Shown here piece by piece: positions 3,180-16,336 of a stretch of DNA of 25,005 bases. Made by a program: the position numbers and the translations under genes. The notes under the pieces are model-generated. The model saw nothing but the letters and a program-made list of their open reading frames with translations. It did no database searches and was not told where the DNA came from. The stretch's first letter is position 1. Each line of letters begins with the position of its first letter. The DNA lies in IMG/VR virus record IMGVR_UViG_3300015371_000162, positions 1 through 25,005 of that record. The stretch is one strand, 5' to 3'. The DNA is from a virus.

Positions 3180-3415
3180 CCGCGAAGGCGAATAGGTGGC
3201 TACGCTATGGAGCGATCTGCAAGGCGCTTCATGTATTGCCACGCAGCGGCGGCGTGCTCGAACAGGATGCCGGTGAGATGATCTGTCTCGAAGCGATCCT
3301 CGACGCATTCGGCCGATGGGAAGAGTATCAATCGAAGAAGAGGGGCACACGGGACAAGAATCGCAGTCGGCACGATGCGGTACGTGAAACGGAGACATTG
3401 GTAGATGCCACTTAG
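2706..3415 (+). CDS. Tail assembly chaperone, -1 frameshifted long form (gpGT-like)
   Basis: The -1 frame is open from 3092 to a TAG at 3413-3415 but has no sensible start codon of its own, which is the signature of a gpGT fusion. Slippage on CCCTTTG (3104-3110) joins about 135 residues of the short form to about 101 residues of the new frame, beginning A-E-C-A-F-A-I-L-I-G-R-I-D-V. The extension is helical and strongly coding-like (VFGDQLTAKANRWLRYGAI; EMICLEAILDAFGRWEEYQ) with a basic tail. It ends 11 bases into the tape measure gene, so translation of the two may be coupled. In lambda, the ratio of G to GT is fixed by slippage efficiency and is needed for tail assembly; the same role is inferred here. 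Confidence 0.78.
3091..3110 (+). promoter_or_regulatory. Programmed -1 ribosomal frameshift site with upstream SD-like stimulator
   Basis: The heptamer CCCTTTG occupies 3104-3110 and reads C-CCT-TTG in the zero frame, so both codons can re-pair after slipping back one base (CCC-TTT). An internal AGGAGG at 3091-3096 lies 7 nt upstream. SD-like sequences at about this distance stimulate -1 slippage in bacteria, as in dnaX. The bases after the heptamer can form a small stem (CCGA at 3111-3114 with TCGG at 3135-3138), but that is weak. The open -1 frame downstream and its location in the chaperone gene make this a confident call. Confidence 0.75.
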
Positions 3416-6400
3416 AGTGGGCGAGATGATGGTCGTCGTGCGGGCACAGGACTTCGCGTCCCGCACACTGCGCCGTGTCTCAAGCGATCTCTCACACATG
3501 TCTCGCGACCAGGCCATTGCCGCGCGGCGAGCGCAGATTGCATTCCAAAAAGAGACTGCACTGAGCCGTGTGGCAATGGCTGAGTCGAATGCCCGTCGGA
3601 TCAACTACGTCCGCAACGGTATCGAGATTGAACGATCTCTGAAGAAGCAAGTCGAGGCAATGGATCGGCTGAGTATCGCGCAGTCTCAGGTGATGAAGGG
3701 CGGACGCTTTCGGGGCGGCATCTCTCGCACACAGATGAGGGAATGGCAGAATGCATCAAAGGCAGTGAAAGACCTGGGACTGCAGGGAGTGATGGCTTCT
3801 TCGAGGCTTTCCACCGCCCGTACGGAACTCGATCGTCTGCTCTCAATGAAGCGGCCCGGTAAGGCTAACGTCGCAGCCGCGACAGCCGAACTACGGAATG
3901 CAGAGCGGGCAATGAAATCGCTCGGCGCACAGGGAGAGGCAGAGGTAGCGAGATGGAATCGAATGCAGCGAGCCGCTGCCAACTTTTCATCTCGTATCGA
4001 CACGATGCCCACTTCACTGCGTCGTGCCGCTCTCGGTATAGGCAATCTCGGTACGGCGCTTCATCGCAGTAATGACGAACTGCGCAGGGCATATTTCAAT
4101 CTCGATCAGGCAACACGCGCCGAGATCGCCTTCAATCAGGCTATGGCGCGAATGCCTGCGGCAAGACTTCATGAGTTTGGACAAGCGCTCGGCGGCATTG
4201 GCCGTACGATGCAGCTATTCGGCGCAATAGGTACCGCCGGATTCGGACTTGCCGCAAGAGAAGCGGCGAACTTCAGCAAGTCTGTCTCGCTCGCGACAAC
4301 ACAGATGAATCGTATCTCTGCTAGTCAGGCAGAGGCTCAAGCTAATGCGGCTCGTCTGAGAGTCGAGATTCTTCGGCTAACTAAGGAATACCCTTTCGCA
4401 GCGGAAGAGATGGCCCAAGCTACCTACGAAATCTTCTCGTCTACCAATATCCAGCGCATAGATCAGGGTATGGCGCTGCTTGAAGGAATTGCACGAGTTG
4501 CAGTTGCGGGACAAACTGACCTGCAAACTGCATCAAAGGCGACGATTACTGTACTGAATACATTCAAGGGTGCAGGAGATGATGTCGCTTCGATCTTCAA
4601 TCGGATGTTCTCAATCATCCGGTATGGACGTATGCAGTTCGATGACTTCGCCGCTATGCTCCCGAAAGTTGCAGCAGCAGCCTATGCGTCGGGCCAGCGA
4701 CTTGATGATGTCGCAGGCATCATGGCATTCCTAACACGTAAGACGGGCGATGCGCGAGTCGCAGCTACACAGATTTCTCGCGCGTTCGATGTTCTGACAC
4801 GCAAGGAATTCCGTAATGGAATCAAGCGTCTCGGTGTCGACATCGAAGACACCACTGGCAAAATGCTTCCTCTCCCGCAAGTCCTCGCAAGGATTTGGGC
4901 TAAATGGGGGAAGGAACTTTCACAGGGTGGACGTGCGTCTGAACGATTCATCCAGATCGTCACTCGTGCGGCAGACGAGACAACTAAAGGCTTGCTGTCT
5001 ACACAGGAAGCACGACGCTTCTTCCGCTTCCTCTTCTCTGATTACAGAGAGTACGCGAATCTACAGAAACTCGTCACGAAGAACAATACTCAGTTCCGCA
5101 ATCAGTTCAATCAGATGATTCAAGACCCCGGTGTCCAATGGGCGATCTTCGTCGCACGGATACGTGCAGGAATCATCGAGATTGGACAAGCTGCAATTCC
5201 TGTATTTGCTGATCTCGGACGTATCGTAGCTGGATTCATCGACAAGTGGGAAAGTCTCAGCGACGGAACGCGAGGCATGGTTGTACGGTGGGGAGTGTTC
5301 ATCTCTGTGGGCGGTTTGGTCGCAGGTGTGCTGCTCTCGATCACCGGCGCTCTCATCTCGGTCGGTCTAACCTTCGGTAGTGCGGCTGCAAAGCTGGCGC
5401 GCTTCATGGCCGCGATCTTCGGCTTGTCGAATCTGCTCGGCGGAAAGGGAACGGCAGGAGTAATCGGCCGTGCATTGTTACTCGCGAAGGTTCTCGGATT
5501 CCTCGCGGCGATTGGGACGATCAGTATCGGTGTGAAATTGGAGATGAAGGGTGGTGGTTGGTCTTTCGTCGGGAAGGTCTTGCAGATCGGTGGGATGAAT
5601 CAGCTACTCAAGAAGGCGGGCATGAAAAGCCTTCGCGGGCGCACAGGCATCTCTGCCGTATTGACGGAGTTGATTTGGCCCGAAGGCACAACGAGGTCTA
5701 CGGCCGAGGATGTTCTTGGTCGTATTCAGGAGTTGGACAAGACGCTTGCTGGCAAGATGAAACAGGCCAAGATCAATAAGATTCAGAAGGAAGCATCCAA
5801 CATCTTTCGCGCTGGTCTAAATGTGCAAGGGCCAGGAGGCGAGGGTCGAGGCTTTGAATTCGCGAAGAAGAAGCTCGATGCTTATTTCAAGTCACTCGGA
5901 CTTGCGCCGTTAGAAGCTGCAAAGAATACCGAGACTGCTAGTGACCGCTTTGATGCATTCCTGCGAAATCTGAATAGATCGATGGGAAAAGCAGGAACCA
6001 ATCAATTCCTGAAGAAGATGGGTCTTGATAAGCAGAGCCTTGCACAGTTGGATAGTAGCTTCGATCAGGCGGACGATAAGGTGCATCGGCTTGCACGGAG
6101 TATCGGGCAGGCATTCGACCGTGGCAACGTCTCGCAGGCGGCGCGAATGCTCAATATGTTTACCGCCGTGCAGACGCAGAAACTTACCTCGAACAACATC
6201 CTGAAGTTGATCGCAGCCTCCGTGCGTTCAGGTGATCTAAACCGCGCGACCGAACTTTTGCAGCAATGGCAGCAGGCCGTACAGCAAGGCGACCAAGAGA
6301 TGCAGCAGTATCGAGAGTCGATGAAGCAGTACAGTCAGCAGCTTGCAGAGACATCCAAGCAGGCGGCTGTCGATGTCGTCTCGAACTTGCGCAGTATGTA

Positions 6401-7172
6401 TCAGCAGATGCAGCAAGAGAATGAGACAGCATTCGGTGAACTGTTCAAGGGGCCATTCCTCACGAGTCAGACATTCGATCTTGCAAAGGAATGGGGTATC
6501 GCGCCGCGCATTCAGGACATGATCAAAGACCTGAATCAGCAGAACAACCAATTCACAAAGTGGCGTCGATCGCTCGATGCGATCCTCAAGCGCGGACTGC
6601 CGAAAGAGTTCGTGGATCAGATTCGACAGATGGGGCCAGAAGAGGGACAGGCATTTCTCGACAACATCCTCAAGGCGAAGCCGGGTCAGGTCAATGCGCT
6701 CATCACTCAGTGGAGGCGGCGCAACGTCCAGATTCAGAACGCGACCAAGATGGACTTCAAGAGCGAGATCGATCACTTCCGTCGCGCAGGCGTCTCGATG
6801 GGCGAGGCGATCATCAACGGATTCCAGCAGGCTCAGACCGCGAAGTGGTTCGACAATTGGGTCAAGGTCACATTCCCCGGCGTGATCAACAATGCGGTCA
6901 ATACGGCTGTGCAGGACTGGAAGGCGACCAATCCGCCCCCTACTCGACCCACTGTGCCGGGGTCGGTGCCGGGGGGTGGCACCAAGCCACAGCGCACAGC
7001 GGGGGTCTCAAACACGTCGCACAACACAGACAACTCGAAGCGATGGGATGTCACCGTGACACTGCCGTCAGTGCCCCACACAGAGGGGTATGGCGCGGCC
7101 TATCAGCAGCACAAGGATGACATGCGCCGTGCAGCATTGGCACTTCGTACGATCCTGAGAGGTCTACATTGA
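3405..7172 (+). CDS. Tail tape measure protein (TP901 core type)
   Basis: At 1255 residues this is by far the largest gene, and it sets tail length. The N-terminal 320 residues are helical, Arg/Ala-rich and coiled-coil-like. Residues about 325-470 carry the TP901 tape-measure core, recognisable in YPFAAEEMAQATYEIFSSTN, AVAGQTDLQTASKATITVLN and FDDFAAMLPKVAAAAYASGQ. Hydrophobic, glycine-rich segments at about 622-680 and 688-712 are candidate membrane-inserting helices, as expected of a protein ejected ahead of the DNA. A Gln-rich helical stretch follows at about 950-985. The C-terminus has a Pro/Gly/Thr-rich linker near 1180. I see no lytic enzyme domain. The start overlaps the frameshifted chaperone, and the stop TGA overlaps the TTG start of the next gene. 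Confidence 0.93.
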   Translation: MPLRVGEMMVVVRAQDFASRTLRRVSSDLSHMSRDQAIAARRAQIAFQKETALSRVAMAESNARRINYVRNGIEIERSLKKQVEAMDRLSIAQSQVMKGGRFRGGISRTQMREWQNASKAVKDLGLQGVMASSRLSTARTELDRLLSMKRPGKANVAAATAELRNAERAMKSLGAQGEAEVARWNRMQRAAANFSSRIDTMPTSLRRAALGIGNLGTALHRSNDELRRAYFNLDQATRAEIAFNQAMARMPAARLHEFGQALGGIGRTMQLFGAIGTAGFGLAAREAANFSKSVSLATTQMNRISASQAEAQANAARLRVEILRLTKEYPFAAEEMAQATYEIFSSTNIQRIDQGMALLEGIARVAVAGQTDLQTASKATITVLNTFKGAGDDVASIFNRMFSIIRYGRMQFDDFAAMLPKVAAAAYASGQRLDDVAGIMAFLTRKTGDARVAATQISRAFDVLTRKEFRNGIKRLGVDIEDTTGKMLPLPQVLARIWAKWGKELSQGGRASERFIQIVTRAADETTKGLLSTQEARRFFRFLFSDYREYANLQKLVTKNNTQFRNQFNQMIQDPGVQWAIFVARIRAGIIEIGQAAIPVFADLGRIVAGFIDKWESLSDGTRGMVVRWGVFISVGGLVAGVLLSITGALISVGLTFGSAAAKLARFMAAIFGLSNLLGGKGTAGVIGRALLLAKVLGFLAAIGTISIGVKLEMKGGGWSFVGKVLQIGGMNQLLKKAGMKSLRGRTGISAVLTELIWPEGTTRSTAEDVLGRIQELDKTLAGKMKQAKINKIQKEASNIFRAGLNVQGPGGEGRGFEFAKKKLDAYFKSLGLAPLEAAKNTETASDRFDAFLRNLNRSMGKAGTNQFLKKMGLDKQSLAQLDSSFDQADDKVHRLARSIGQAFDRGNVSQAARMLNMFTAVQTQKLTSNNILKLIAASVRSGDLNRATELLQQWQQAVQQGDQEMQQYRESMKQYSQQLAETSKQAAVDVVSNLRSMYQQMQQENETAFGELFKGPFLTSQTFDLAKEWGIAPRIQDMIKDLNQQNNQFTKWRRSLDAILKRGLPKEFVDQIRQMGPEEGQAFLDNILKAKPGQVNALITQWRRRNVQIQNATKMDFKSEIDHFRRAGVSMGEAIINGFQQAQTAKWFDNWVKVTFPGVINNAVNTAVQDWKATNPPPTRPTVPGSVPGGGTKPQRTAGVSNTSHNTDNSKRWDVTVTLPSVPHTEGYGAAYQQHKDDMRRAALALRTILRGLH

Positions 7173-9529: not shown

Positions 9530-10716
9530 CTGGCACTCTCGATGTCCCCGCTGGTGGCGGTACTGTCGTCGTCCCTGAAGCTGCAGATGCAGTCGTGTTC
9601 TTCGGTACCAACTTTACTGTGATGGACACGATCGTCACAGCCCCCGGTACAGGCATCTTCATGGGATGGGCAGGGCCGGATATCGATGGGTCGGGTGTTC
9701 GTCAGGGTGCGATCGGAATTGTCCCTGATGGAGATGCCTACTGCGCCGATGAAGCTGCAATCCTGTGTCCGTCAACCGCCGGGACTGGCGCTGTGCTGTA
9801 TCGTGCCGAACTCGTATCGTTTGATGGTGCTTCATTCACACTCAATTTCACGCAGGGTGCGGCGGGTGGTTACAAGGTGTTCTATCTCGCAATCAGCGGG
9901 TTCGAGAACTATCTCGCAACGGGCCACGTGGGGAGCGTCAGCACGGCGGTCGGATGGAAAGCCAACTCTGTACTCGGACAAAGTTTCCGAGGTATCTCGG
10001 CAGTGCCCGCCGCGTCTACCAATTTCCACGGTGCGACGTGGGGCGCGACGGCTAACAAGTTCAACACTCCGACATGGGGATATGTGGCCGCATCTTCGTA
10101 TCCGACAAGTCAAAGTGGGCAGGGTATCTCAGAGACGCTTGCTTTGAGTGGTGGCGTCCCCAAGTGTGGACTGACAACGCACTTCACTGGCCCATTCATG
10201 ATCACAGGATTGCTCAATGGTCGACCAACCGGAGTTGACGGATTCACCTTTACTCGTGGCACCGATCCACAGAACTTTGCATGGTGGCTCGCATGGAGTG
10301 GTGGTAGTCAGTTTCGTGGGATGAACATCCCTACGGGTGTGGTAGATGCAGAGGCATCGAGTACGTTCACACAGATGGAAGCCGTGGACTGCCTTATCAC
10401 GTTCACTTGTTCCGATGCCCCGCAAGGTCAGACACCGGCGGCAGGTGGAGCAGTAGGATTCTCGTTTGCAACACCCGATTTCCAATGCTGCGCAATTGTC
10501 GATGCAATGGGAACTCGTGGTGCATTCCAGTCGACCACAAGGGGGTGGGCATCGATGGTCGATTCGACTCAGGTTCGCGCAGGCGAGGTTGAGTTCGTCG
10601 GAAATGTCGCTCTTCTTCGAACGATCGACGCCGGTGCAGTTGGGGGGTCACTCGTCGCACTCGGTTTGGAGGACGAAGAAGACACCCCAGGATTCTTCAG
10701 GGTGGTACATCGATGA
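9517..10716 (+). CDS. Tail fibre / minor structural protein candidate
   Basis: A 399-residue protein dominated by small residues, aromatics and predicted beta-strands, as is usual for fibres and receptor-binding proteins. It opens with a strand-rich segment (GTVVVPEAADAVVFFG) and contains many short Gly/Thr/Ser turns and several cysteines, with no signal peptide or membrane helix. The start ATG lies 13 nt inside the preceding gene, implying coupled translation and probably a shared complex. No catalytic motif (for example sialidase, SGNH or depolymerase) is evident, so host-surface binding is an inference from location and composition. It might instead be a virion decoration protein. Confidence 0.6.
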   Translation: MGYVAGTLDVPAGGGTVVVPEAADAVVFFGTNFTVMDTIVTAPGTGIFMGWAGPDIDGSGVRQGAIGIVPDGDAYCADEAAILCPSTAGTGAVLYRAELVSFDGASFTLNFTQGAAGGYKVFYLAISGFENYLATGHVGSVSTAVGWKANSVLGQSFRGISAVPAASTNFHGATWGATANKFNTPTWGYVAASSYPTSQSGQGISETLALSGGVPKCGLTTHFTGPFMITGLLNGRPTGVDGFTFTRGTDPQNFAWWLAWSGGSQFRGMNIPTGVVDAEASSTFTQMEAVDCLITFTCSDAPQGQTPAAGGAVGFSFATPDFQCCAIVDAMGTRGAFQSTTRGWASMVDSTQVRAGEVEFVGNVALLRTIDAGAVGGSLVALGLEDEEDTPGFFRVVHR

Positions 10717-11060
10717 GTGTCCCGGAGAATGGGCCGACTCTCACTTACCGTGTTGGGCAGCTTGAACGCGATCTGGAACGCTTCGAAGAGCGGTATGAAA
10801 GACGGCATACAGAATTGGTAGCTCAGGTCGTCAGATTGCAAGAGCAAATCGCAGTCCTCCGTGCGGAATTCCACGGGTATGTGGCCTCTGTCGATAGACG
10901 ACTAGACGAACTCGAAGCAAATCTCACCAATGACATCAAGGATTACAACGAGGATGTGAAAGGGCTGAAAAAGGTTCTGATCCTGTCGCTAACCGGAGTC
11001 ATGGGAGCGGCGATAACATTCGCGATAACTAGTTTGGCGGTTTATGGTGGGCCTGGTTAG
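10713..11060 (+). CDS. Coiled-coil protein with C-terminal membrane anchor (XhlA-like)
   Basis: A 115-residue protein. Residues about 9-75 form a strongly charged coiled coil (YRVGQLERDLERFEERYERR; VVRLQEQIAVLRAEFHGYV). Residues about 88-112 form one membrane segment (VLILSLTGVMGAAITFAITS). This layout is that of the XhlA family, which assists holin-lysin release in Bacillus prophages and is common in lysis cassettes. ATG overlaps the previous stop (ATGA), and an AGGGTGG ribosome site lies about 7 nt upstream. Its place just before other membrane and lysis genes supports a lysis or membrane-docking role. A tail-tip accessory role cannot be excluded. Confidence 0.68.
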   Translation: MSVPENGPTLTYRVGQLERDLERFEERYERRHTELVAQVVRLQEQIAVLRAEFHGYVASVDRRLDELEANLTNDIKDYNEDVKGLKKVLILSLTGVMGAAITFAITSLAVYGGPG

Positions 11061-11385
11061 CGGATACGGCGACGACCGTCGGGGGACAGTAAGATGGCTC
11101 TATGCAGCCATCATAAGTTGGGCAATCAGTTTCGTGTTGATGGGGGTGTTCGGCGCATATGTGATCATTCGAGGGAATCAGGTGAACGACGCACTCTGTC
11201 GCGTTTCCGACGACAATCGCACAACTCTCGTGAAGATTCTCGAAAAGGTAAGAGATAACGCTCTTCTAACGGCGACAGGCGTGCCAGAAAGGAATCTTAT
11301 CCGCCAGAACTTTGCTGAACTCATCGCGTTGGTCCCGCCTCTGAAGTGTAACGAATCAGGAGGGCCGAAGGAATTAGAACCGTAG
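11044..11385 (+). CDS. Single-pass membrane protein with paired extracytoplasmic cysteines
   Basis: A 113-residue protein. It has a basic N-terminus (DDRRGTVRW) followed by one membrane helix at about 18-42 (LYAAIISWAISFVLMGVFGA). By the positive-inside rule the remaining 70 residues should lie outside the membrane. That part carries exactly two cysteines (about 52 and 102) that could form a disulfide, and a helical middle. Similar small type II membrane proteins occur next to lysis genes of actinophages; their function is unknown to me. It overlaps the XhlA-like gene by 17 nt, and its 3' end carries the AGGAGG ribosome site of the next gene. Confidence 0.65.
   Translation: MVGLVSGYGDDRRGTVRWLYAAIISWAISFVLMGVFGAYVIIRGNQVNDALCRVSDDNRTTLVKILEKVRDNALLTATGVPERNLIRQNFAELIALVPPLKCNESGGPKELEP
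11358..11363 (+). promoter_or_regulatory. Ribosome binding site (AGGAGG) for an apparent AUU start
   Basis: A perfect AGGAGG lies 9 nt before an ATT at 11373 and 48 nt before the first in-frame ATG (11412). The ATG has no ribosome site of its own. The site therefore points to the ATT as start of the secreted barrel protein. Confidence 0.6.
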
Positions 11386-11828
11386 CCGTCATACTAACCA
11401 CAGCGACTCTAATGGTCACTGCAGTCGCCTCTGCAGCACCGCCAAAGGTGGTATCAGGACGATCCAATATCACGATCACGTCACAAGTGATCAAGGAAGA
11501 GAAATTCCAAAGATTGCGGATTACAGCATTCGCATTGTACAACAAGAATATCTCACCTTACGCTATCGGGAACAGCATCCTCCGTTGTACGATCATAAGC
11601 AGGAAGCGAACTCTTCCACGTAATACAAGAACGTGTTTTGCTGTTTACCGTATGCCACTCGGTCAGATCGTCGCAGCGGGTCTCGTAACGTCCAGTGTTT
11701 TTTATCGATTAGCCGTAATCGGTGGAACTGGTGCATATGCGAATGTGGGGGGAGGTCAACTGCAAGTAGTGACGACACAGCTACAGCCACGCAAGGATCG
11801 ATTGTTCTTTGTCCTGTATTCATTCTAG
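11373..11828 (+). CDS. Secreted allene-oxide-cyclase-barrel / dirigent-like protein with AUU start
   Basis: The protein is 151 residues from ATT 11373. The first 20 or so form a classic signal peptide: Arg2, a hydrophobic run (TVAVILTTATLMVTAVA) and an A-S-A cleavage site. The canonical ATG at 11412 would remove most of it and has no ribosome site, while AGGAGG lies 9 nt before the ATT. The C-terminal half matches the allene oxide cyclase barrel/dirigent superfamily: two cysteines (ILRC, TRTCF), a YRMPLGQIVAAG strand pair, then FYRLAVIGGTGAYANVGGGQ with the hallmark GGTGxY. Secreted members are common in actinobacteria and mostly uncharacterised; plant relatives make oxylipins or steer phenoxy-radical coupling. 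Its role in a lysis cassette is unknown. It could act in the cell wall or periplasm during lysis, or be a moron gene altering the lysogen or infected cell. Confidence 0.72.
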   Translation: MRTVAVILTTATLMVTAVASAAPPKVVSGRSNITITSQVIKEEKFQRLRITAFALYNKNISPYAIGNSILRCTIISRKRTLPRNTRTCFAVYRMPLGQIVAAGLVTSSVFYRLAVIGGTGAYANVGGGQLQVVTTQLQPRKDRLFFVLYSF

Positions 11829-11836
11829 GAGGAAAC

Positions 11837-12019
11837 ATGAGCGAGGTTGAATCCCCTTCTGGTGACGACAAGCCACTGACTGAGCCTCCGGGCGAAGAGG
11901 GCGACGATAGTGTCAACGATCCGGGTGATATCGAGAAGATCGAGGAAGGTGATCTCGAAGATACTACCCCGCTAGACGATGAGGATGACGAGGATGAGTC
12001 TGACATCGACACAGCGTAG
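11837..12019 (+). CDS. Very acidic 60-residue protein
   Basis: Starts at ATG 11837 behind an AGGAGG at 11827-11832 that overlaps the previous stop codon. The same frame is open further upstream, but that part only shadows the barrel gene. About 27 of 60 residues are Asp or Glu against two Lys, and the C-terminal third is almost purely acidic (LDDEDDEDESDIDTA). It has no hydrophobic core and is probably disordered. The function is unknown. An acidic DNA-mimic (anti-restriction) or a chaperone-like tether are possibilities that rest only on charge. Its end overlaps the lysin start by about 26 nt, so it may mainly serve to couple lysin translation. Confidence 0.65.
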   Translation: MSEVESPSGDDKPLTEPPGEEGDDSVNDPGDIEKIEEGDLEDTTPLDDEDDEDESDIDTA

Positions 12020-12485
12020 CGTTGCGCGTATGCTGATTCGCCGCTATCTCGATCAGGTGATCGCGAACAGGGCGAACATCCACTATAGCCAGTTCCGGCC
12101 CACACAAATCCATGCACCTTCCGGTGAGTGGGCTACAGACTGCAGTGGTCTATGCATCAACGCATTCCATTGGGCCGATCTATGGACTCCGTTCCTCATC
12201 AAAGACCCTGCGGGGTACGGCTATACAGGCATTGGAAATACCACAACGATCCTCTCGACCAATCGAAGACGGAGGGTGCCTCTCGACCACAAGTTCTTCG
12301 TCGGTGACATGGCGTTGTTCGGTGATTCGTTGTATCACACCAAGCACGTGATCATCTGTCGCAGGAATGGCACATACACGACATCGATCTGGACATCGCA
12401 TGGTCAGGAATCGGGGCCGTACGATGTACGGATCAACTACCGAAGCGATCTACTCGTCGTTGTTCGGGCAGAATCACTAGCGTAG
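11994..12485 (+). CDS. Endolysin-type NlpC/P60 (CHAP-like) cysteine peptidase candidate
   Basis: The protein is 163 residues from ATG 11994; in-frame ATGs at 11979 and 11985 are alternatives, but GAGG at 11981-11984 suits 11994. The nucleophile motif TDCSGLCINAF places Cys at about residue 50. VGDMALFG is followed by HTKHVIICRR with His at about 118. SHGQESGP at about 135-142 is the third element, common in phage lysins of this fold. This is a papain-like fold that cuts amide or peptide bonds in peptidoglycan. No signal peptide and no recognisable cell-wall-binding domain are present, so it is a single-domain enzyme that would rely on the holin for export. It lies directly before the holin gene. 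Confidence 0.8.
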   Translation: MSLTSTQRSVARMLIRRYLDQVIANRANIHYSQFRPTQIHAPSGEWATDCSGLCINAFHWADLWTPFLIKDPAGYGYTGIGNTTTILSTNRRRRVPLDHKFFVGDMALFGDSLYHTKHVIICRRNGTYTTSIWTSHGQESGPYDVRINYRSDLLVVVRAESLA

Positions 12486-12494
12486 GAGGAATCG

Positions 12495-12749
12495 ATGCAG
12501 CCGAAGGTCAACAAGTGGCTCGATCTACTTGATCGAGTCGGATGGACGGCAGTGCAGGCGTCTGCCGCCGCCGGGATCACTGTGCTGTCCGGCGCAACTC
12601 TCGGATGGCGGGCCGGTCTGACATTCATCGGCACTGCCGCCGCTCTCGCAGTGCTCAAGGTCGTCGTCGGTCAAAACACAGGCGAGGACGATACGGGCGC
12701 ACTCATCGGTAAGTCGGTGATTGAGCCTCCCCCGGAGGCGAAGCCTTGA
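12495..12749 (+). CDS. Holin (phage r1t-like)
   Basis: An 84-residue protein with two hydrophobic segments at about 16-35 and 39-59 (AGLTFIGTAAALAVLKVVVG), a short turn GWR between them, a charged N-terminus beginning with a tryptophan helix (KWLDLLDRVGWTAVQA), and a charged Pro/Glu-rich cytoplasmic tail. This size and the 'W..D...R..WT.VQA' opening are characteristic of r1t-type holins of actinophages. It would form the membrane lesion that releases the lysin. A strong AGGAGG lies about 5 nt before the ATG and follows the lysin stop codon. The stop TGA overlaps the TTG of the next small gene. Confidence 0.82.
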   Translation: MQPKVNKWLDLLDRVGWTAVQASAAAGITVLSGATLGWRAGLTFIGTAAALAVLKVVVGQNTGEDDTGALIGKSVIEPPPEAKP

Positions 12750-12847
12750 GCAGCAACGACGCATTCTCCGTGATCGTTGGTCTATGCGTCATCGCGATCG
12801 CTGTGATGCTCTTCATTGCGATCATCGATGACTCTGTGACCTTCTAA
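12746..12847 (+). CDS. 33-residue single-pass membrane peptide, last gene of the late operon
   Basis: Starts at TTG 12746, overlapping the holin stop (TTGA, the same 4-nt coupling used elsewhere), and ends at TAA 12845-12847. The peptide is almost entirely one membrane helix (FSVIVGLCVIAIAVMLFIAI) with a short polar N-terminus (SSND) and an acidic tail (IDDSVTF). It could be a holin partner or antiholin-like regulator, by position only. Its length makes the call less sure, but the coupled start and the uninterrupted hydrophobic helix support it. Confidence 0.55.
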   Translation: MSSNDAFSVIVGLCVIAIAVMLFIAIIDDSVTF

Positions 12848-12991: not shown

Positions 12992-13147
12992 TTCTAGTTT
13001 CGCTAGATACTCTTTGATCCGCGAGGCAAGGCAATTGAACTCATGATTGTCAGGCCATCGACCACAGAAGATGCACCAATTAGCTTCATTCCCAACATAC
13101 ACGTGCTCCTCTATGACTTCCTTGAGTAGATCATCTGCCTCTGTCAT
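12968..13147 (-). CDS. 59-residue zinc-knuckle-like protein, last gene of the minus-strand operon
   Basis: ATG 13147-13145 overlaps the RuvC-like gene's stop as ATGA, and the frame runs to TAG at 12970-12968. The protein begins MTEADDLLKEVIEEHVYVGN and then has WCIFCGRWPDNHEFNC at about residues 24-39: a CxxC, a His and a further Cys at spacing suited to one zinc ion, followed by a short helix (SRIKEYLAKLE). Small CxxC proteins of this kind are common and uncharacterised in actinophages. Its C-terminal codons are built from one arm of the terminator stem. It is shorter than 60 residues and easy to miss. Confidence 0.65.
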   Translation of the reverse strand: MTEADDLLKEVIEEHVYVGNEANWCIFCGRWPDNHEFNCLASRIKEYLAKLEDRPAPGE

Positions 13148-13680
13148 ACGTCTAGCTCATCCACAAGTACGATCTCTATCTTGTCGAGATCGATGTGCTC
13201 TGCACCCGGCCCGAACTTGGCCCACTGCAGGAAGTGTCTCGTCGCGTCGCGGCCGTGCTTCTTGCCTACCTTGTATGCACCGACTTGCTTCAGCTTCTCG
13301 TCCGACCAGAATGCCTTACCTGTCGCTGCGCTCTGCTTGTAGAAGTGGACGAACGGCTCATACCTTTCACGGACTAGCTCTATCACACCGATCAGCTTGA
13401 CAGGTGTGAGATCAAGTCCTGACCGTGCATAGTTACGATACTCGAAGTCCTCGTAGATCACATGCAAGTTTGGCTGACTGTCTTGGATGAGATCGATGAG
13501 TAGCTGATCCATCTCGGCCAACGAGAGTCGATCCTCCTGCACGAGCAGCTTCAGCACGTCGTCGCACACGGCGATCGCATAGCCCGTCGTTTTGCCCGGA
13601 TCGATCGCCAGGACGACCATCGGGCCGTCGATCACCGGCAGGCTCAGGGCTTCACGAGCGGGTGTCTGTAGGGCGCTCAT
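13144..13680 (-). CDS. RuvC-like Holliday junction resolvase
   Basis: A 178-residue protein with an RNase-H-fold resolvase pattern. VVLAIDPGKTTGYA holds the first catalytic Asp (about 27), VIYEDFEYR the Glu (about 77), and KKHGRDATRHFLQWA near 141-153 the C-terminal His/Asp cluster. This set is typical of phage RuvC-like nucleases, which resolve branched replication intermediates before packaging. No membrane segment or fusion is present. It is placed two genes downstream of the DNA polymerase. The ATG at 13680 overlaps the preceding stop as ATGA, which decides the start over Met21. The stop overlaps the next ATG the same way. Confidence 0.85.
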   Translation of the reverse strand: MSALQTPAREALSLPVIDGPMVVLAIDPGKTTGYAIAVCDDVLKLLVQEDRLSLAEMDQLLIDLIQDSQPNLHVIYEDFEYRNYARSGLDLTPVKLIGVIELVRERYEPFVHFYKQSAATGKAFWSDEKLKQVGAYKVGKKHGRDATRHFLQWAKFGPGAEHIDLDKIEIVLVDELDV

Positions 13681-13880
13681 GGCGAGTCCGGCCTTGGAGT
13701 CGCGCCCGAGGATTCCGGCCGCTCAGCCGCCCGGAGGACGACGGGACGGGGCATTCGATCGAGCACCTGATCGGCGGCTCTGAGCACCGGCACCGACGAT
13801 CGCTCTACAAGTTGTAGGATTTCTCTTCCGATCGCGCTCGGGTCACGATTGTCGACCCATTGCAAACTTGCATCAGTCAT
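13677..13880 (-). CDS. 67-residue protein of unknown function
   Basis: The frame is open further upstream inside the polymerase gene, but the ATG at 13880-13878 overlaps the polymerase stop as ATGA, and its own stop overlaps the next ATG as ATGA, so the true product is 67 residues. It has one amphipathic helix region (AIGREILQLVERSSVPVLRAADQVLDRM) and a Pro/Arg/Ser-rich tail that is probably disordered. No motif is recognised. It may be an accessory to the polymerase or resolvase between which it lies, but nothing in the sequence shows this. Confidence 0.6.
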   Translation of the reverse strand: MTDASLQWVDNRDPSAIGREILQLVERSSVPVLRAADQVLDRMPRPVVLRAAERPESSGATPRPDSP

Positions 13881-16336
13881 TCCTCTGCTTCTCCCCAACT
13901 CGGGCCGACACTGACTTCGGCTTTGAATGGCAACGTCCATCCGAGTTCATCGAATGCAGTCGCACCCATCACTTGCTTGATGATCTCGGAGTACTCTTCG
14001 ATGTAGTCTTCCTCGACATCCGCAACAATTGAGTCGTGAACGAGAATTCCAATTGCGGCTCGTCGTGGATCGATTTCAGATCGGAGAGTAATTGCTCCGC
14101 AAAGAGTGATATCCGAAGCTGTAGACTGAGGATAAAAGTTGATTCCTTCTCGGTAACATGACTCAAGATTGTCTCGGGTAAGAAGATGGAAACGACGCTT
14201 CCGTCCGAACGGTGATATGAGAACTCTCTTCCCTTTGACTTCCCTCTTGACTGACTCTTCCCACGCCGCGACTCCGGTGAAGGTCTTCCAGACCCACTCG
14301 ATGTATGGCTCAGCTTGGCTCTTCGGAATCCCATGCTTCTCCTGAAAGGTATCGGCCGATTGCAAGTAGAAGACGCCGAAGTTCACATTCTTGCACGTAG
14401 AATACTGTTCGTAGGTATAGTCAGCCCCGTAGAATCTGGTGGCCGTTTCCTTGTGGAGCGAGAGGTCTTCAGTGTAAATTCGCGTGAGTTCTCGATCTCC
14501 TGAGAACTGCGCGATACAACGCAACTCAGCCTGCGAATGATCTGCCGAGACAATCCTTCTACCGGGGGACGCTCGGAACAGAGAACGAATGTCAGGCATG
14601 TCCGGCTTGGTTCGTGTGATATTCTGCAAGTTCGGGCGAGAAGACGATAGTCTTCCGCTGTTAGTTCCGTGTAGGTTGAGTTGAGTGTAAATCCGCGAAT
14701 CTTCATCGAGTTCCGCCCTCTTGATTAGACCGACGAGATACGTACCATCCTGCTTCTGCAGCTTCTTGTATCGGTCGAACTGTTCTGTGAACGAGATGTA
14801 GAACGAACGTCGCTCCTGTGCGTCGTCAGCAGGCGCGACCTTGCGTAGCGCCCCCTCCGCAACAATTTTGGTATCGCCCCGGAACTTGAACCGACCGGCG
14901 ATGATCTCTTTGCGTGCGGCCTCATCGACAGAGCGCGCCGGTTTCTGCATCGTTGGCGTTGGCTTGCGCTTCTGCATCGCATGCTGAATGCCCCACTGAT
15001 CGTAGAGTAGCGCGGCCATGTGAGCGGTCGAGCCTGGATTGAGCAAGTCGTTGTCGACCGCCTTCTGCATCCGAATACGTAGCTCGTCCATCTCCGGTTG
15101 CACGACGAACTCATGCAAGTCCATTGCACGATCCACATCGTAGATCATGCCATTGAGTTCTACCTCTGTTAGAAACTCGTTACCACGTAGGAGCAAGTGT
15201 CGATACGCACCGAGAACGTCATCCCTCTCTGCGCGGGGGAGTTGATTCTGTAGGAGTTGGAAGGTGCCACCCACGTCCATCCCTGCGTAGCGGTAGAACT
15301 CGTCATAGTCTTCTACGACTCCCGTCTTTTTGGCACGTTCCACACGCTCGGAGGAGTAATAGGGCCATCCGAACGTATCCATGAGCAAATAGTCCAGACC
15401 GTGTATACCAATACGTTCATCGGTTCCTGATCTCTCATCGAGAGCATAGGAGAGTAGCATCGTGTCATGATCTACGCGCGCTTCCTCGATGCCATACGTA
15501 TAGCGTAGGATTTTCGTGTCAAACTTTCCACCGTGCCAGCCATACGTACAGTCGGGACGGGAGAGGAATTGTCTAAGGTCACTTCGAACAACATCGTCGA
15601 ACGCATCGAATCTTTCCCCAAGAACGTAAGCCACATCTCCCTCCACAGCGAATTGAAATGAGATAAGGCTTGCTCGGTGAGAAAGTCCTCCCCTTGACTC
15701 GATGTCGCAACACACGAGGGGTACGGCAGTGCCCCCACGTGAATACTTTCGAAGAATAGATCGGGCTGCCCGTTCATTCTCGATTACCTCGATCTCGGGG
15801 AACGTTGGTTCCGGTAGTGGATTCAGTGCTCGTCGGAAGTCTCGCTGTAGGTCAGGGAACTTGGAATCGTTCTTGAGGATGACGGCAGGATTATTCGTAG
15901 CCACAACAACTCGCCCGTTTTGCTGATGACGATACCCACGGTGTCGATCAATCGAGCCTTTTCCAATGAGTAGACCAACTGCCTCGCTTCCGCAGGCGAT
16001 AACAGTGTCAATTCCCTGAAGTTCCCTCTCAAGCCTTGGAGCACACGCTTTGATCGCCTCCGGTGGTACATTGCCCTCGGGTGCGACACACAAGACAGTA
16101 TTCGTGAGAAGCATCTGCTCACGCTTGACTCCATTCATGCCGAACAGATAGTCGAGAATCTTGCCCGAACCCATACTCGATGACATCGGCTCGCCGGTTC
16201 GTACCTCGGCTGCGCCTGGTGAGCGGCTTACGACCGCACCGCGCACAGGATGCATGGTGGGCCGTTTCGTCTTGACACACTGTGCGCTTTGCAAGGGGCA
16301 CTCCCCGCAAAGAGCACCTTCAGCTTTGGGGATCAT
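13877..16336 (-). CDS. Family A DNA polymerase with 3'-5' exonuclease and N-terminal UDG-like domain
   Basis: An 819-residue replicative polymerase. Residues 1-170 resemble the uracil-DNA glycosylase superfamily (family 4 type): Cys10, Cys13, Cys83 and Cys98 in the CxxC-n-C-x14-C arrangement that holds an Fe-S cluster, and TNTVLCVAPEGNVPPEAIKAC. However, motif 1 reads SRSPGAAE instead of GEAPGxxE, and motif 2 reads NNPAVIL instead of HPxxL, so glycosylase chemistry is probably lost. The exonuclease spans about 195-375: DIE (211-213), GKFD (270-273) and YAGMD (350-354). The polymerase has LSSSRPNLQNI, motif A SADHSQAELR (Asp about 599), motif B KNVNFGVFY (Lys about 649) and motif C LVHDSI (Asp about 768). 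Catalytic residues of both latter domains are intact. ATG 16336 overlaps a 21-residue reading frame as ATGA. Confidence 0.92.
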   Translation of the reverse strand: MIPKAEGALCGECPLQSAQCVKTKRPTMHPVRGAVVSRSPGAAEVRTGEPMSSSMGSGKILDYLFGMNGVKREQMLLTNTVLCVAPEGNVPPEAIKACAPRLERELQGIDTVIACGSEAVGLLIGKGSIDRHRGYRHQQNGRVVVATNNPAVILKNDSKFPDLQRDFRRALNPLPEPTFPEIEVIENERAARSILRKYSRGGTAVPLVCCDIESRGGLSHRASLISFQFAVEGDVAYVLGERFDAFDDVVRSDLRQFLSRPDCTYGWHGGKFDTKILRYTYGIEEARVDHDTMLLSYALDERSGTDERIGIHGLDYLLMDTFGWPYYSSERVERAKKTGVVEDYDEFYRYAGMDVGGTFQLLQNQLPRAERDDVLGAYRHLLLRGNEFLTEVELNGMIYDVDRAMDLHEFVVQPEMDELRIRMQKAVDNDLLNPGSTAHMAALLYDQWGIQHAMQKRKPTPTMQKPARSVDEAARKEIIAGRFKFRGDTKIVAEGALRKVAPADDAQERRSFYISFTEQFDRYKKLQKQDGTYLVGLIKRAELDEDSRIYTQLNLHGTNSGRLSSSRPNLQNITRTKPDMPDIRSLFRASPGRRIVSADHSQAELRCIAQFSGDRELTRIYTEDLSLHKETATRFYGADYTYEQYSTCKNVNFGVFYLQSADTFQEKHGIPKSQAEPYIEWVWKTFTGVAAWEESVKREVKGKRVLISPFGRKRRFHLLTRDNLESCYREGINFYPQSTASDITLCGAITLRSEIDPRRAAIGILVHDSIVADVEEDYIEEYSEIIKQVMGATAFDELGWTLPFKAEVSVGPSWGEAEE

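Follow-up and report, generated by a model that had tools for sequence, protein, structure and literature searches.

The lysis region and the barrel gene

The window analysed here is a virus record of 25,005 bases (G000), which carries tail genes and a lysis region at approximately 10.7–12.8 kb (Table 1). The original prediction had placed a secreted protein resembling allene oxide cyclases (AOC) and dirigent proteins between membrane proteins and the lysin, and this arrangement was upheld: a coiled-coil protein with a transmembrane (TM) helix and a second, one-TM protein (hereafter the membrane partner) are encoded upstream of it, while the downstream genes are those of an NlpC/P60-like lysin and a holin of the r1t type. 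A 33-aa ORF with a TTG start and one hydrophobic helix (12746-12847) overlaps the end of the holin gene. Beside the DNA polymerase A gene lies a gene for a RuvC-like protein, recognised by eye (AIDPGKTTGYA; 13144-13680 (-)), and the N-terminal part of the polymerase itself resembles, also by eye, uracil-DNA glycosylase-type domains. No near relative of the window DNA over positions 11000-12500 was found among annotated phages, and an Rfam search of the window returned zero matches.

The frame on the (+) strand at 11373-11828 comprises 151 open codons. Its upstream in-frame stop is at 11349 and its first ATG at 11412, within the predicted signal peptide, with neither ATG nor GTG nor TTG in between. 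The ATT triplet at 11373-11375 is conserved together with its surroundings in the close relatives L001 (5001-5003) and L076 (3779-3781), and in alignments it falls on the ATG with which the genes of more distant relatives begin. As the hydrophobic N-terminus has no ATG, GTG or TTG upstream of it, and the conserved, ATG-aligned ATT is preceded by an AGGAGG sequence, we conclude that the gene indeed begins at 11373 with an unusual ATT start. The use of ATT in three related phages and of ATG in more distant ones may reflect a weak or regulated start. The barrel protein shares 71% identity in alignment with its counterpart in L001, and the distribution of nucleotide differences over the three codon positions (39/21/81 over 150 codons) indicates purifying selection on a gene evolving as coding DNA. 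The open frame, the conserved ATT and the codon-position pattern together bear out that the ORF is a real gene.

Table 1. Features of the window discussed in the text
Feature	Coordinates	Strand	Basis and remarks
Tape measure gene	3405-7172		
Coiled-coil protein, one C-terminal TM helix, weakly XhlA-like	10713..11060	+	PF10779 E 5e-4, below cut-off
Membrane partner; C52 and C102 lie in the extracytoplasmic part, after a single TM helix at residues 23-41	11044..11385	+	3' end overlaps barrel gene by 13 nt
AGGAGG Shine-Dalgarno sequence	11358..11363	+	9 nt before ATT; AGG(A/G)GGGCCG kept in L001 and L076
AOC-like/dirigent-like barrel protein, predicted to be secreted, 151 aa, ATT start	11373..11828	+	Open frame, family HMM and shuffles, AF2, Foldseek
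Signal-peptide-like N-terminus, IRTVAVILTTATLMVTAVASA	11373..11435	+	Hydropathy peak at residues 4-22; without lipobox cysteine
C72 codon; residue in strand 3, opens the invariant pair	11586..11588	+	Invariant in phage and bacterial members
C88 codon; residue in strand 4, in hairpin register with C72	11634..11636	+	Invariant; strands 64-74 and 86-94
GGTGAY family motif, residues 117-122, after strand 6	11721..11738	+	Sequence, alignments
Short ORF rich in Asp and Glu, between the genes for barrel and lysin	11837..12019	+	Acidic counterparts in L001, L005/L006 and L076
NlpC/P60-like lysin, TDCSG motif	11994..12485	+	Relatives in L004-L006 and L076; PF00877 match (E 0.013) under cut-off
Holin, r1t-like	12495..12749	+	phrog_443 holin E 6.2e-5; PF16945 E 0.0078
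DNA polymerase A gene	13877-16336	-	Strand opposite to lysis region

Homology and predicted fold of the barrel protein

In Pfam searches the window barrel gave a single hit, AOC_like (PF18678), at 15.3 bits (E 0.017) and hence under the curated cut-off of 25.9 bits, with no match to PF06351 (Allene_ox_cyc) at E<=1 and none to PF03018 (dirigent). On this score, a glycine-rich secreted phage protein might merely look AOC-like by chance. Its phage relative L034, however, lies above the AOC_like cut-off with 27.7 bits (against PF03018, L034 and L042 reach 18.8 and 15.8 bits, both below the cut-off of 29.1). Further to that, an HMM was built from 21 bacterial members, which had been fetched with a query modelled on the consensus of the bacterial family; the one of them tested (L024) passes the curated cut-offs of both AOC_like and Allene_ox_cyc. 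This HMM scored the window barrel at 38.3 bits (E 5.6e-14), compared to 11.3 bits for the best of 10,000 shuffles, a resemblance beyond chance.

The motifs and the two cysteines that had been read as marks of the family are likewise present. MPLGQI occupies residues 94-99 of the window barrel, and GGTGAY corresponds to the GGTGx[YF]-type motif described for bacterial dirigent-like proteins (PMC9344732). C72 and C88 are its only cysteines; neither this pair nor the glycines in the GGTG region vary among the phage and bacterial proteins, and a cysteine pair in strands 3 and 4 has been described for 42 of 49 bacterial members (PMC9344732). In the structure model the two cysteines face each other across the hairpin of these strands, in agreement with the description of bacterial dirigent-like proteins in PMC9344732, and a C72-C88 disulphide is predicted to join strands 3 and 4.

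An AF2 model built on an alignment of 20 sequences, bacterial family members included, has eight strands (pLDDT 78.4, pTM 0.69), so that the protein is predicted to form an eight-stranded barrel; a model from the two closest phage sequences alone was uninformative (pLDDT 39). Compared with the PDB by Foldseek, the model matched pyocyanin demethylase best (E 1.6e-7), followed by allene oxide cyclases, AbyU-type Diels-Alderases and a dirigent protein. There were 52 PDB matches at E<=0.001 and, among the matches listed, all belong to the AOC/dirigent-type barrel group. Pyocyanin demethylase was also the best PDB relative by sequence, at a non-significant E of 0.58. The same fold was sought among viral structure models as well, where the single match at E<=0.001 had a TM-score of 0.38 and an rmsd of 14.8 and was rejected.

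Given the shuffle test, the invariant cysteine pair, the fold search and the score of L034, chance resemblance is very hard to credit. Both the fold and the profile comparisons thus came out as the original prediction anticipated, and we conclude that the product of the window gene belongs, as a divergent member, to the AOC_like/dirigent-like family of bacteria. Like the bacterial members (PF18678, PF03018; PMC9344732), which have signal peptides, it has a length within 130-170 aa, GGTGx[YF], cysteines in strands 3 and 4 and a predicted eight-stranded barrel, and its N-terminus resembles a signal peptide in hydropathy; in contrast to the phage gene, the bacterial genes are chromosomal and their products have a conserved Asp in a GD motif and often an Arg in an ARG motif. 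A phage or lysis context of bacterial dirigent-like proteins is not described in PMC9344732, from which the words phage and virus are absent.

The barrel gene has a fixed place in the lysis cassettes of eleven phages

A motif scan of IMG/VR followed by HMM comparison identified relatives in L001/L043, L029/L041, L032, L034, L035, L037 and L042. L054, a 38.9 kb contig in an actinobacterial genome which reads as phage (its tape-measure-sized ORF is judged from size and position only), came from a search of genomes, and a second, independent scan for barrel motifs added L076 and L080, both of which fit the context pattern recorded beforehand. In both scans, stretches with the motif and without an HMM match were discarded as chance hits. 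The resulting set of phages is small (n=11), and motif scans miss divergent members. Other searches returned nothing: tblastn against annotated phages found no relative with the window barrel, a bacterial member, L032 or L034 as the query, nor with the membrane partner of L029; no PHROG family matched any of eight phage members at E<=0.01; neither the bacterial alignment A3 nor L023 detected a relative when viral contigs were scanned, these sequences being too divergent; an initial scan of genomes with the two phage sequences was likewise empty; and a phylum-wide sample of 397 genomes held zero further phage-type copies at E<=1e-14.

In 11/11 phages the gene directly 5' of the barrel gene encodes a one-TM protein whose two cysteines are separated by 41-55 residues. 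The two genes overlap by 13 nt in L001 and L076, as in the window, by 4 nt in L032, L042, L037/L050, L034/L048 and L035/L049, and by 1 nt in L029/L046 and L080; in L054 they abut. L001 apart, the membrane partners share only 15-23% identity with that of the window, with one invariant cysteine column as aligned; they are alike in architecture more than in sequence, and their common ancestry is therefore not proven. In L054 (1933-2391(-)) and L080 (2615-3103) the partner has a collagen-like, Gly-rich N-terminal stretch before the TM helix, which in L054 matches PF01391 (E 5e-5).

A holin or lysin gene is found near the barrel gene across the set, while the type of lysin varies: NlpC/P60-like in the window, L001 and L076, Amidase_2 in L029 and L042, and M23 in L034 and L054. 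In L032 an r1t-type holin was found and the lysin was not identified, and in L080 the gene after the barrel gene encodes a holin-like membrane protein, as judged by eye. Small proteins with similar ends (in L051, DLHEACELVRQGCPPARALDILL) are encoded after the barrel or holin gene in L051 (9572-9919), L054 (1289-1501(-)) and L080 (3997-4209).

One could regard the barrel gene as host-derived cargo with no part in lysis, bringing for instance a benefit in lysogeny or decorating the virion from within the late operon. Its host-like origin in the tree (see below) would agree with this, as would the related phages L005 and L006, which have the lysin type of the window at 56% identity and lack the barrel gene at this place. 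Cargo genes, however, usually change position, and here the same slot and the same upstream membrane gene are kept in eleven divergent phages with exchanged lysins. We consider the cargo reading improbable. Related genes at the same place in eleven phages are what had been proposed as a check on the prediction, and we conclude that the AOC-like family in phages is one clade and a fixed part of the lysis cassette, directly after a one-TM, two-cysteine protein.

Several actinobacterial relatives are encoded next to CHASE3 sensor kinases

In a tree of 43 proteins, nine phage proteins form one clade (support 97/96), which lies within a supported set (96/90) otherwise composed of actinobacterial proteins, of the class of G009. 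Among bacterial proteins, secreted AOC-like proteins of actinobacteria (L055-L063) are the nearest to the phage clade, and several of their genes directly follow, with an overlap, a gene for a CHASE3-HAMP-HisKA-HATPase histidine kinase; our literature search found no report of this pairing of an AOC-like gene with a CHASE3 kinase gene. Comparison of the phage and CHASE3-linked sets by hhalign gave a probability of 99.8% (E 7e-29). The two sets have in common a (Y/F)N-K/R-x-I/L...IG motif before the first cysteine, as well as, in several CHASE3-linked cases, the overlap with the end of the upstream membrane-protein gene. They differ in the nature of the upstream partner, which is a sensor histidine kinase in the bacteria, and in the Asp and Arg positions, which the bacterial proteins keep. 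Read most simply, the tree suggests that the phage gene was probably taken from this actinobacterial host family, with host to phage as the inferred direction.

This kinship raises the possibility that the phage barrel mimics the secreted partner of a host CHASE3 sensor kinase and blocks or feigns an envelope signal late in infection. The identity of the closest bacterial relatives, their overlapping position directly after the kinase gene and the support of the joint set (96/90) all speak for such a signalling role. In the phages, however, the gene stays within the lysis cassette, next to that of a membrane protein of their own, and this protein is not detectably related to CHASE3 (a CHASE3 ancestry was rejected at an hhalign probability of 0.7%). 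We therefore regard signalling mimicry as unlikely.

Conserved residues speak for a binding or structural role

Two residues conserved in the bacterial members have been lost from the phage clade: the GD Asp is kept in 1/9 members of the phage clade and the ARG Arg in 0/9, compared to 94% and 72%, respectively, in the bacterial set and 89% and 100% in the CHASE3-linked set. Since bacterial members also vary at the Arg, these residues are not a strict criterion of membership. All positions that are invariant in the nine phage proteins hold Cys, Gly, Ala, Thr or Tyr, with zero invariant acid or base.

It might still be argued that the barrel is an enzyme or binder of small molecules, which takes up a hydrophobic or redox-active compound (a lipid peroxide, quinone or phenazine-like pigment) from the failing envelope and thereby protects the phage or changes the envelope. 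Enzymes and ligand-binding proteins are numerous among the solved structures of this fold, and PodA (PDB 5k21), the best solved relative by fold and sequence profile, demethylates pyocyanin. PodA, which acts on phenazines, has about 19% identity, and plant allene oxide cyclases and dirigent proteins, with which the barrel fold is held in common, show about 12-19% identity and belong to plant pathways. The loss of Asp and Arg from the phage clade makes a catalytic role less likely, and strict linkage to a lysis membrane protein would be unexpected for a free enzyme. The residues inside the plant dirigent pocket vary between members (PMC4340379), and the loss of Asp and Arg is thus compatible with ligand binding. 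We see a small-molecule role as a minor possibility, and cyclase or dirigent chemistry by the phage barrel is probably not to be expected. The retention of structural Cys and Gly without an invariant acid or base, taken with the constant presence of the membrane partner, makes it more likely that the barrel binds or has a structural function than that it catalyses a reaction.

A putative lysis component acting outside the cytoplasmic membrane

From its hydropathy and an AxA-like site, the two features on which we judged signal peptides, the barrel protein is predicted to be exported via the Sec pathway. The o-spanin lipobox cysteine after the signal peptide is absent, and the mature protein is devoid of holin-type TM helices, its sole other hydrophobic peak (residues 99-117) corresponding to strands 5 and 6.

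We suggest that the exported barrel is a binding partner of the one-TM membrane protein and acts in lysis rather than as a cyclase, a reading of gene order and coupling to which we give about even chances. The barrel would bind the extracytoplasmic part of the membrane protein, possibly as a trimer like its family relatives, and during lysis the pair would act on the outer side of the cytoplasmic membrane. There it may help to disrupt the envelope once the wall has been cut by the lysin, a task done by other means by spanins and, as proposed, by LysZ, or it may set the timing of lysis.

Several known lysis factors invite comparison. Spanins are also lysis-cassette accessories outside the cytoplasmic membrane, but consist of a membrane protein and often a lipoprotein, as opposed to the soluble secreted barrel without a lipobox seen here. 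LysZ of Corynebacterium phages is, as described in PMC13056207, a one-TM lysis accessory outside the cytoplasmic membrane, with a proposed N-in/C-out topology that is also proposed for the membrane partner, and is proposed to break the envelope. LysF1b of cluster F1 mycobacteriophages is likewise a one-TM protein of an actinophage lysis cassette and is needed for efficient lysis, but has the opposite topology (N-out/C-in), and the passages of PMC13056207 consulted here report no barrel partner for it. According to the same article, antiholins and spanin-like factors for Gram-positive hosts are largely undefined, and actinobacterial phages have several small genes without an assigned role in their lysis cassettes.

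The presence of a conserved exported barrel directly after a small membrane protein in at least eleven uncultivated phages suggests a lysis component not described before. More tentatively, and with somewhat less than even confidence, we propose that these phages, whose hosts are probably actinobacteria, possess a coupled system in which a one-TM protein, its extracytoplasmic part closed by a disulphide, is paired with a secreted AOC-type barrel, serving a step of envelope disruption or timing distinct from those of holin, endolysin, spanin, LysB and LysZ. A barrel from a family of plant-hormone and natural-product chemistry, fixed beside the same kind of membrane protein in eleven divergent phages whose lysins have been exchanged, is a sign that lysis has a missing component which can be tested for. 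The AOC-like family is tied to membrane proteins twice, to a CHASE3 kinase in bacteria and to a lysis-cassette protein in phages, and these two links suggest that the general role of the barrel in bacteria may be to bind the outer domains of membrane proteins.
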